This document shows, piece after piece, positions 3,246 to 33,127 of a stretch of 64,000 nt of DNA. The DNA is taken from IMG/VR virus record IMGVR_UViG_3300027777_000023, positions 1 through 64,000 of that record; one strand, 5' to 3'. The translations under genes and the position numbers were made by a program. The first letter of the stretch is position 1. Each line of letters opens with the position of its first letter. Source of the DNA: a virus. The notes under the pieces were generated by a model. It did no database searches and was not told where the DNA came from. It was given only the letters and a program-made list of their open reading frames with translations.

Positions 3246-4855
3246 AAATTAAATGCAGTTTGGGGGACGCTAATGGGGCAACACTCACGTATCAGGTTGG
3301 TAGCATACCCACAGCCACCGTGAGTTTAATTCCTCCTGGAGGATTTGCAGTGGAAGGGTTTCAACTCACGGACGTGGAAGGACAGAAACGTGGAGGCACA
3401 CACTTCATAGATATTTCTGTAAAAGCTCACGCAGCTCTTGGCAGTACCTCAAGGAAAGCTCTTTTTATTGGTACCCTGGACGGTATGAGCGTCAACCAAA
3501 CTTTCGGCAGCGCGCGGTATGAGGCGGTAATAAAGAACAAGGCACAAGTTCTGGCTGAGTTAACCACTATGACTCCAGGGCTGTATCCGGCAGGAGTTAA
3601 CATATATAAAAACCCAGGCTGGTCTTCAATTATAAATAACCAGGAAGATGGAAAGGTGGAGCAGTGGGGTATGATGAGTGAGGCTCCCGAAGTATTCAAT
3701 CATCCACCCATTAAGGCGTATACTGAAATAATTAAATGGGTCCTAGGTAAGCAGAAAAGCGGCTGGGAGAATTATGTGGGTATAGATAAAGATTTGACGG
3801 GAGGTACGCCATTCGATGGAATATTTACTGACGGACGATATTCAAAAGCTTTAGATGAGGCTATAAGAATTTTTGACACTATAGATCTTGATGCTGTTAC
3901 TGGCGGAGCGCAGGCGGGTATAAACTGCACTGACGCTGTTATCACAGACTCCATGGGTTCTTTGTTTAAGTCAGGTCCAAGCGTGCTGCTTGAGAACTAT
4001 CTTGGGTTTCTGAGTTTCATGGGCTGCACAATGATTTTTAGTAATAATAAAGCTTACGTTGTACCAATGAACTCAGCACTCAAGCAGGGAGGTTCGGCGC
4101 CAGGCAAAGGACAGACCCAAGGGTCACCAAATATTGCGGGTCCCGTAGATTACAACAACTACGTTTATAATGATATTGGCTACCGCGATATTGCCTGTGT
4201 GGCTGTTGTGATTGACGCGGGGCCTGGAGGACCCAATCTAGGTAGTGCGACATGGGACACCGGAGGTGCTGCCTACTATTGCGAAAAACAAGGAGCATCG
4301 AAAGCTTCTGGTGTATATGTTGTTCGTGCACACCCATTCATGGCCTTGTCGGCAACACGAGCATTAAACGATACTGCGGAGTTTGCAGATCGAATCGATG
4401 GAGGCACTGACTCGCTACATAAAGCCAAAATTTCATTTGATGCGGCTGCAACAGCTTCAGGTAAGGGTCACGCCGCGCGCGCCAACGCCAAGGTCAAGAC
4501 CGCCCGAACCAAATACGGCAAAGCACTGCAAAGTTTTGCCGAGAATAGGTTTTATCAAGCAAGGTATGGAGACAGGCAAGGTTCAATATTGTTGGATTTT
4601 AACCCCCAGTGGTGTCCAGGCACAGGGGGTGTGTTGTTTATGAAGGGTACGGGTATGGCTGTGGAGTTTTATGTCACATCAGTATCTCATCATGTGGGTG
4701 TTAATTCTCCGGCAGAAGGAACGGCAATAACAACAGTTAATTTTAGTTGTGGTAGGCTAGGTAAGCCGCCTTCTGGTATGTCCTTTGACGCTTTTTTGGG
4801 TTATAGTAGAGGCAAAGAAAAAGGCATTCAGGCGAGCTTTGTTGGAGACACATAA
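3227..4855 (+). CDS. Putative baseplate hub-like protein, 542 aa
   Basis: The start overlaps the upstream gene by 19 bases. The last quarter (about residues 440-515) reads as a beta-rich segment with a ring of Gly and Val followed by a NFSCGRLGKPP end. This resembles the closing part of tail hub (gpD or gp27-like) proteins, which often end with a repeated S-x-x-H...T-x-V pattern. An Ala- and Lys-rich helical insert lies near residues 400-440. Together with position after a tape-measure-like gene and before gp25- and gp6-like genes, a hub role is reasonable but not proven by a motif. Confidence 0.4.
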   Translation: MAAKDVKIKCSLGDANGATLTYQVGSIPTATVSLIPPGGFAVEGFQLTDVEGQKRGGTHFIDISVKAHAALGSTSRKALFIGTLDGMSVNQTFGSARYEAVIKNKAQVLAELTTMTPGLYPAGVNIYKNPGWSSIINNQEDGKVEQWGMMSEAPEVFNHPPIKAYTEIIKWVLGKQKSGWENYVGIDKDLTGGTPFDGIFTDGRYSKALDEAIRIFDTIDLDAVTGGAQAGINCTDAVITDSMGSLFKSGPSVLLENYLGFLSFMGCTMIFSNNKAYVVPMNSALKQGGSAPGKGQTQGSPNIAGPVDYNNYVYNDIGYRDIACVAVVIDAGPGGPNLGSATWDTGGAAYYCEKQGASKASGVYVVRAHPFMALSATRALNDTAEFADRIDGGTDSLHKAKISFDAAATASGKGHAARANAKVKTARTKYGKALQSFAENRFYQARYGDRQGSILLDFNPQWCPGTGGVLFMKGTGMAVEFYVTSVSHHVGVNSPAEGTAITTVNFSCGRLGKPPSGMSFDAFLGYSRGKEKGIQASFVGDT

Positions 4856-31898: not shown

Positions 31899-32312
31899 GG
31901 GCCCGTACTGGTTTCGACTGAGAGTTGGAACTATAGACTGCACGTCGAGGAAGCCTGGTTGGCCTCGTTAAAACACCTAGGCAAAGCTAGTCGTCAATAA
32001 CATTGACTTCGCCCCTTCGGTTGAAGAAGCTGATGCAGTCCTCGCCACCTTCGGGTACGCGGACGCTGATGCGATCCTCGCTGCCTAAGGAGTGCCTGGA
32101 ATTGATTGTCTGCTATTTTCCAGGGTAACACGCAGCAGACTGGTTTGTGGGAGTATTGAATCCTACTCCACATAACGAGATAATGGATAATCGAGAAGTC
32201 GTAGCCTGCTTGTTGGCGCCGTCTTCTCTAAATAAAAATAACATAGCTAAACGTGTAGAGGTTTATAGTGAAGGCGTTCAGGACAGGGGTTCAACTCCCC
32301 TCGGGTCCACCA
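31899..32312 (+). ncRNA. ssrA: Phage-encoded tmRNA (one-piece) with 31-residue tag
   Basis: The 5' end (GGGCCCG then TACTGGTTTCGAC) and the 3' end (CGGGTCC, A, CCA) pair over 7 bp as the tRNA-like acceptor stem. The T-arm AGGGG-TTCAACT-CCCCT is canonical and CCA is encoded. After TAGTC, which usually precedes the resume codon, an open frame runs from 31993 to a TAA at 32086-32088 and ends in ...ADADAILAA, like normal proteolysis tags. tmRNA frees stalled ribosomes and tags the product for ClpXP. The tag contains a near-duplicate unit. The phage copy could act on host or phage messages. Confidence 0.9.
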
Positions 32313-32317
32313 CTTTT

Positions 32318-32585
32318 AGGGGTGAAGCTTAATGGTATAAGCAGGCGACTCATAAAAATTGTGCATTATAACGAGAAATCATATAATGAATGATGTCAAA
32401 TTCGGTGAAACCTAAAACAGAAATGTTAAGGCAACGCCGAGCGAAGCCTCGAAAGAGGAACGTGTAGAGACTTGACGGCATCCTCCTAAGGCGCAAGCTA
32501 AGGAGAAGACAAAGTCCAGGGAGTGAGGAAACTCACACAAACCTAAATCGCTCGACAGTGGGTTCGATCCCCATCACCCCTACCA
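32318..32585 (+). tRNA. tRNA-Ile2(CAU), interrupted by a group I intron
   Basis: Exons 32318-32353 and 32546-32585 join to a 76-base tRNA with CCA encoded. Acceptor AGGGGTG/CACCCCT, D-arm GCTT/AAGC with GG, anticodon arm GGCGA-CTCATAA-TCGCT and T-arm GTGGG-TTCGATC-CCCAT all pair. The anticodon arm equals that of E. coli tRNA-Ile2, and the initiator hallmarks (three G-C pairs, 1:72 mismatch) are absent. So it is probably the lysidine-modified Ile tRNA reading AUA rather than Met. It begins 5 bases after the tmRNA. Confidence 0.88.
32354..32545 (+). ncRNA. Group I intron (IC3, Azoarcus-like) in the tRNA anticodon loop, 192 bases
   Basis: The intron enters after CAU of the anticodon. Anticodon CAU pairs with guide GTG (32361-32363) with the U-G wobble at the splice site, and AAT of the 3' exon can pair as P10. 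P2 is CATTATA/TATAATG; CAAATTCGGTGAAACC, GGCAACGCCGAGC, GTGTAGAGACTTGACGG and AAGACAAAGTCC are the P, Q, R and S core elements; a GAAA-capped P9 hairpin is at 32523-32536. The order and many words match the Azoarcus tRNA-Ile intron. The last base is A, not the expected omega-G. It has no ORF. Confidence 0.88.
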
Positions 32586-33097
32586 TTTATCTCGCCTAAC
32601 GTGAGCAGATTGTGGTCAAATTCCCAATGACAGTTAGGACACAGGAATAGTATGTTTTCCCTGGCGTTAACTGTCTTTAGTTTGGTTTTTTTGGGAAAAG
32701 AAGAAATAGGGCGGATATGACAAATCTCGATATGTTTGTTGTAGCCGCACCGCTGGCACAAAGGATTGGTCTTCTCTGCTTTATATAGGCTATTGGCATG
32801 ACCTCGAATTTGATCATAGTGGTTCGCTCCTTTTCTTGCCGCGATTTCTTCTATGGTTGCTTCATTTCTATCTTTACCTTGTAGATGCTTTTTGTGTGCG
32901 ATACAGGCATCGCAAAAGACATTAAGTCTACCGTATTTGTTCGGGTACAAGATAATTTCACAACCTTTACAAATCTTAGACCGAGTTGACCGTCTTTTTG
33001 GTTTAATTGTATTGTTGTGTCTAGCGGCACAGCGCCTACTACAAAACTTTTTTTGATCTCTGGTCTTTAACTTTGTGGTGCAGGTGATGCAATTCAT
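32543..33097 (-). CDS. HNH endonuclease, 184 aa, antisense to the tRNA 3' exon
   Basis: Three paired Cys sites occur: C-x2-C near residues 3-6 with CSRRC, C-x2-C near 43-46 and C-x2-C near 60-63. The HNH core is CQRCGYNKHIEICHI (about residues 113-127) and ENILFLCPNCHWEFDH (about 147-162), with the usual H and N. Such free-standing HNH proteins are often homing enzymes beside introns. The last 13 or so residues are encoded on the strand opposite the tRNA 3' exon, and the stop overlaps the last three intron bases. The C-terminus is therefore probably constrained by the tRNA. Confidence 0.75.
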   Translation of the reverse strand: MNCITCTTKLKTRDQKKFCSRRCAARHNNTIKPKRRSTRSKICKGCEIILYPNKYGRLNVFCDACIAHKKHLQGKDRNEATIEEIAARKGANHYDQIRGHANSLYKAEKTNPLCQRCGYNKHIEICHIRPISSFPKKTKLKTVNARENILFLCPNCHWEFDHNLLTLGEINGRGDGDRTHCRAI

Positions 33098-33127
33098 ATA
33101 ATTATTTATTATTTGGGTTAGGGTTGC

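Follow-up and report, generated by a model that had tools for sequence, protein, structure and literature searches.

We describe here a phage tRNA(CAU) gene that is split by a group I intron of the bacterial tRNA-Ile type whose last base is A. The terminal G of group I introns, which the guanosine site reads in the second step of splicing, is treated as universal, and in the present intron this site is kept. Slower but working splicing appears to us the most likely outcome, with a probability of roughly 0.58 on the sequence features set out below. The tRNA, the intron and an antisense gene for a predicted HNH endonuclease together form one block that is about 99% identical in two phages whose flanks have diverged. 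Four points go beyond the original prediction: the recent transfer of this block, the sharing of one base pair between the HNH stop codon and the end of the intron, a published natural case of a terminal A, and a P9.0 with all three pairs. The window (the whole stretch analysed, 64,000 nucleotides) is part of the IMG/VR virus record IMGVR_UViG_3300027777_000023, which comprises 189,602 bases. The features to which the text refers are the following:

31899..32312, plus strand: tmRNA gene (ARAGORN; RF00023, 156.1 bits)
32282..33105, no strand assigned: near-identical block shared with contig L083 (8 mismatches in 824 bases, flanks about 71-74% identical)
32318..32353, plus strand: 5' exon of tRNA(CAU), its last bases being the anticodon CAU
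32351..32363, plus strand: P1, CAU 32351-32353 with GUG 32361-32363 (sequence; consensus fold)
32354..32545, plus strand: group I intron of the bacterial tRNA-Ile type, 192 nt, terminal A (RF00028; alignment with 90 other introns; consensus fold)
32358..32360, plus strand: 5' strand of P10, AUU, potential partner of AAU 32546-32548 in the 3' exon (sequence reading; AAU conserved in 90 of 90)
32462..32479, plus strand: R element and 5' strand of P7, with the guanosine-site G32469 and the bulged A32468 (bases unchanged, conserved in 90 of 90)
32511..32520, plus strand: S element and 3' strand of P7 (C32516 with G32469), then the 5' strand of P9.0, AGG 32518-32520
32542..32545, plus strand: 3' strand of P9.0, CCU 32542-32544, and the terminal base A32545
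32543..33097, minus strand: predicted HNH endonuclease ORF, 184 aa (HNH_2 PF13391, E 3.3e-8; phrog_1271, E 7.8e-12)
32546..32585, plus strand: 3' exon of tRNA(CAU), CCA encoded

The tRNA gene starts 5 nt downstream of the tmRNA gene and is split at 32353/32354 and 32545/32546, the insertion lying directly after CAU in the anticodon loop. The original prediction that removal of 192 bases rejoins the exons to a 76-base tRNA was borne out, as the exons spliced in silico give a 76-nt tRNA with anticodon CAU, called by ARAGORN only when they are joined. The best E. coli match of the tRNA body, at 77.8% identity over 54 nt, is annotated as tRNA-Ile, which lends support to a tentative assignment as Ile2, whose CAU would carry the lysidine modification made by TilS, rather than Met. 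In the long ORFs of the phage, AUA makes up 804 of the 2486 Ile codons (32%).

A search with the group I model had been proposed as a check on the intron. The RF00028 (Intron_gpI) covariance model of Rfam matched positions 32329-32538 with 68.7 bits (E 2.5e-15), above its gathering score of 50, and this is the top score among the relatives tested, which reached 54-64 bits. The intron also folds far better than its shuffled versions (z -3.5). The consensus fold computed from the window and four phage relatives retains P1, P2, P3, P4-P6, P8, P9.0 and P9, with compensated changes in 25 of its 61 pairs, and a U.G wobble between U32353, the end of the 5' exon, and G32361 marks the 5' splice site. 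In P7, the equivalents of the Tetrahymena pair 262-312, of A263 and of the pair G264-C311 are G32467-C32517, A32468 and G32469-C32516, respectively, all conserved in 90 of 90 introns. The conserved core and the CAU/GUG P1 of the original prediction likewise hold up in the alignment with the corresponding introns of bacterial tRNA-Ile genes. The class assignment is based on Rfam together with about 84 listed bacterial tRNA-Ile introns, mostly betaproteobacterial, that share site and fold; among the bacterial matches listed, 86 of the 88 resolved exon pairs show the loop CTCAT..AA. Intron decay was considered and rejected, given the highest Rfam score of the set.

P9.0, which in the Tetrahymena structure is formed by residues adjoining the terminal G (PMC10020454), covaries across viral introns (AGG/CC, AAG/CTT, AGA/TCT, GGA/TCT) and is therefore real. 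Its form in the window has three pairs (AGG/CCU), the third lying beside the terminal base. This third pair is found outside the A form too, as CCU followed by a terminal G occurs in three bacterial introns among the matches listed and in L297.

The terminal A at 32545 and the lack of any G in the 17 bases 32529-32545 (AAACTCACACAAACCTA), both noted at the outset, are read directly in the sequence. The P1, P10 and P9.0 pairings all point to 32545/32546 as the 3' splice site. A shifted boundary was rejected, as the first G of the 3' exon, 32550, lies within the anticodon stem and P10 fits 32545/32546 only; the earlier claim that no shift of the boundary rescues a terminal G is upheld. The original prediction had named a sequencing error at this base as its refutation. 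The same A is present in two further contigs: L024, with 100% identity across 2.9 kb, and L083, which carries the same intron between diverged flanks and has 8 other differences within the block. This recurrence rules out a single-read or assembly error, and the chance that 32545 is misread or misassembled, which would now take an error common to all three contigs, is negligible.

In the alignment, G occupies the terminal position of every one of the 90 further distinct, intact tRNA(CAU) introns, and the terminal base is the only departure at an active-site position in the window intron. The scan of bacterial genomes, with matches mostly from betaproteobacteria (Polynucleobacter, Limnohabitans and others), gave 120 G and 1 A among at least 121 distinct 3' ends. 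The A-ending match (L224) is a remnant with a damaged T-arm, in which ARAGORN and Rfam call neither tRNA nor intron and for which a 5' exon was sought and not found. A pattern scan of viral contigs recovered 96 stretches of the intron family, of which the tRNA(CAU) ones end in G save for the window's own family, and two further viral scans that accepted A or G at this position found real G-ending introns in roughly two dozen contigs, whereas L024 and L083 were the only contigs with real A-ending ones. Another 25 A-type pattern matches in viral contigs were discarded as chance, having no R or S element. The initial statement that group I introns nearly always end in G is thus supported by 90 of 90 introns in the alignment and by 120 to 1 among the bacterial matches listed. 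The search for relatives found no intronless or G-ending copy of the window's own tRNA; named phages gave partial core matches only and no relative of the intron with its tRNA, and the plasmids searched for intron relatives gave no match. As a side observation, the L224 remnant is a decayed tRNA-Ile intron of a Burkholderiales genome (pattern match 4736-4772, minus strand).

The block shared with L083 runs from the T-arm of the tmRNA, its left edge, through the tRNA and the intron to the HNH gene. The phage of L083 is not that of the window: in the matched parts, the tmRNAs are 71% and the next genes 74% identical. The block has evidently been exchanged recently between the two phage lineages. 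The two introns have 0 mismatches. The tRNAs show a single difference, at 32574 in the T stem, which turns G.U into G-C and so keeps the pairing. Outside the tRNA, the HNH genes differ by 6 silent changes and 1 replacement, and this mostly silent divergence suggests that the protein is maintained. Identity of the introns was rejected as proof of selection, since the blocks, which up to 32971 differ at 2 of about 690 bases, are too similar to show constraint.

The HNH ORF is antisense to the entire 3' exon of the tRNA, and its stop codon TAG occupies 32545-32543, so that the T of the stop lies opposite the terminal A of the intron; a G at 32545 would extend the HNH frame by 15 residues (Gln and 14 others) into the intron antisense. 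This HNH family sits among phage tRNA genes, where several members end at or inside a tRNA (L112, L116, L129), and many relatives end shortly after the conserved core. SegB of phage T4 is a homing endonuclease of the tRNA region, and this region is inherited preferentially in T4 crosses (PMC2988022). With this precedent, and with the HNH family found among phage tRNA genes, endonuclease-driven transfer is the natural reading: the tRNA-intron-HNH block would move between related phages by endonuclease-driven recombination. The HNH protein is a putative homing endonuclease; inheritance driven by its cutting of alleles that lack the element would agree with the block found in L083. The window resembles the systems of free-standing HNH/GIY-YIG homing endonucleases such as SegB in having an endonuclease gene beside phage tRNA genes, but its gene is a predicted HNH gene, runs antisense, overlaps the 3' exon of the tRNA and ends at the intron boundary. 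Separately, we observed that the HNH family related to P0001 recurs within phage tRNA arrays (L110-L139), and that in L112 and L116 the HNH C-terminus is encoded by tRNA sequence.

Use of adenosine in Tetrahymena was reportedly tied by Been and Perrotta in 1991 to changes of the P7 guanosine-site pair. A compensating A-U switch was considered for the window intron and is absent, G32469-C32516 being retained. Since the P7 G-C pair recognises the terminal G in step 2 (PMC5192423, PMC10020454), an A should weaken this step. In the slower splicing that we favour, step 1, the attack of an external guanosine on the 5' splice site, would proceed normally; step 2 would still take place, with the three-pair P9.0 (AGG/CCU) and P10 anchoring the 3' splice site in the active centre, and would be slower because A is a poor fit for the G-C guanosine site; the spliced tRNA would then provide AUA decoding. 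We favour working splicing over its loss because all else is intact, because AUA accounts for 32% of the Ile codons, and because the hexacoral mitochondrial ND5-717 intron, which has a terminal A, is excised with correct ligation of the exons in vivo (PMC6545197, PMC8146996), a precedent that may depend on mitochondrial proteins. The sound joined tRNA, the intact core with its top Rfam score, the pairing kept in the T stem, the covarying P9.0 and the A common to L024 and L083 also count for working splicing. Counting against it are the guanosine site without a matching change, the near-absolute G of the relatives, which indicates strong selection against A, and the fact that the sole other A among the matches listed belongs to a broken gene.

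These last points would suit a loss of step 2, which we regard as unlikely though deserving of serious weight: the 5' splice site would be cleaved and the exons left unligated, the tRNA would be a recent pseudogene, and the block would persist by travelling with the HNH homing endonuclease. The unbroken G of the 90 intact relatives, the decayed state of the other A-ending match among those listed and the uncompensated P7 are joined here by an HNH gene that looks selected (6 silent changes and 1 replacement against L083, outside the tRNA) and by relatives with no tRNA at all at the locus. If step 2 does fail, the locus would offer a snapshot of tRNA gene loss inside a mobile block. Yet the rest of the core is unbroken in three contigs, as are both tRNA exons, the A-ending coral intron does splice, and AUA is common in the phage. 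The exact placement of the HNH stop at 32545-32543, with the Gln and 14 further residues that a G would add, raises the idea that the A is favoured or held because its base pair gives the T of the antisense TAG, so that a single base would be contested between intron and endonuclease; the many HNH relatives that stop soon past the core, some of them at or inside a tRNA (L112, L116, L129), fit this, but the overlap is possibly fortuitous, the enzyme might tolerate a 15-residue tail, and the search gave no G-ending relative with the same HNH by which to order events, and we consider it improbable. Slightly less credible again is the joint proposal that a standard tRNA-Ile ribozyme splices with a terminal A and an unaltered G-C site, offset by the three-pair P9.0, the A having been fixed as the stop of the antisense endonuclease; were it true, the recognition of the last base would allow for exceptions, and a single base pair would work for a ribozyme as well as for a protein. 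Splicing might finally be slowed deliberately or made conditional on timing, ions or a helper protein, which would confine the appearance of mature tRNA to a certain phase of the infection. A weak terminal base facing an unchanged guanosine site would indeed make step 2 limiting, but the analysis identified neither a regulatory element nor a helper gene and the sequence does not call for regulation, which makes this very improbable.

Group I introns of tRNA-Ile are an already known kind, and the terminal A has one published precedent that we found, in coral mitochondria; as ND5-717 ends in A, the terminal G is near-universal without being strictly defining for group I introns. For a terminal A in a bacterial or phage tRNA intron we found no published report, within an incomplete coverage of the literature. 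The bacterial tRNA-Ile(CAU) introns of the Azoarcus BH72 type (subgroup IC3) share with the window intron the gene, the site after CAU, the CAU/GUG P1, the P, Q, R and S elements, the P7 guanosine site, P9, P9.0 and a similar length of about 190-220 nt, whereas the window intron has a terminal A instead of G, a phage host and a three-pair P9.0. Twelve phage tRNA(CAU) introns (L033, L036, L044, L018, L045, L070, L084, L299, L304, L307, L317, L319) are alike in site and fold but all end in G and lie in other tRNA bodies. ND5-717 is also an A-ending group I intron, and is spliced in vivo; it differs in that it lies in a mitochondrial protein gene and not in a tRNA gene, carries a giant P8 insert and has been proposed to undergo back-splicing (PMC6545197, PMC8146996). 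The Azoarcus tRNA-Ile intron is a structural model of the family, and its relative in the window differs at the terminal base with the site kept. Whether the ribozyme can work with an A and an unaltered P7 is directly testable, given the 192-nt length, easy transcription and a natural G-ending comparison intron, L084, that is about 85% identical.

The tmRNA upstream of the split tRNA has a long predicted tag of 31 residues, VNNIDFAPSVEEADAVLATFGYADADAILAA, and tags of about 30 residues also occur in most related phages with a called tmRNA. The site 3' of the tmRNA varies among relatives: L141 and L148 carry intronless, dissimilar tRNA(CAU) genes, and in L145, L146 and L149 no tRNA was seen downstream of the tmRNA. 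Between the tmRNA and the next gene, L141, L145, L146, L148 and L150 share another conserved element of hairpin-like form, GGTGGAGG.G.A..AGAAATCTT.C.CCC...CAGGCGTC, which was not seen in the window. In L148 (about 2880-2975) and L150 (about 3425-3530), as well as in L322 and L323, ARAGORN misses tRNA-like genes whose anticodon loop is enlarged by about 33 bases (CCCTCAYGGTKAAGG...GGGATA); a scan for the insert matched only the L148 and L150 phages.

Some of the partial core matches fall between annotated protein genes. In KT997847.1 (L002, match 1501-1586), an uncultured marine Autographiviridae phage, the match falls between two capsid-annotated ORFs and possibly represents an unannotated intron splitting the capsid gene. 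The Shewanella phages KJ018209.1 (L003) and KJ018211.1 (L004) have a short core match flanked by the tape measure gene and a gene annotated as HNH endonuclease; it may mark a group I intron of the tape measure gene that the annotation lacks.
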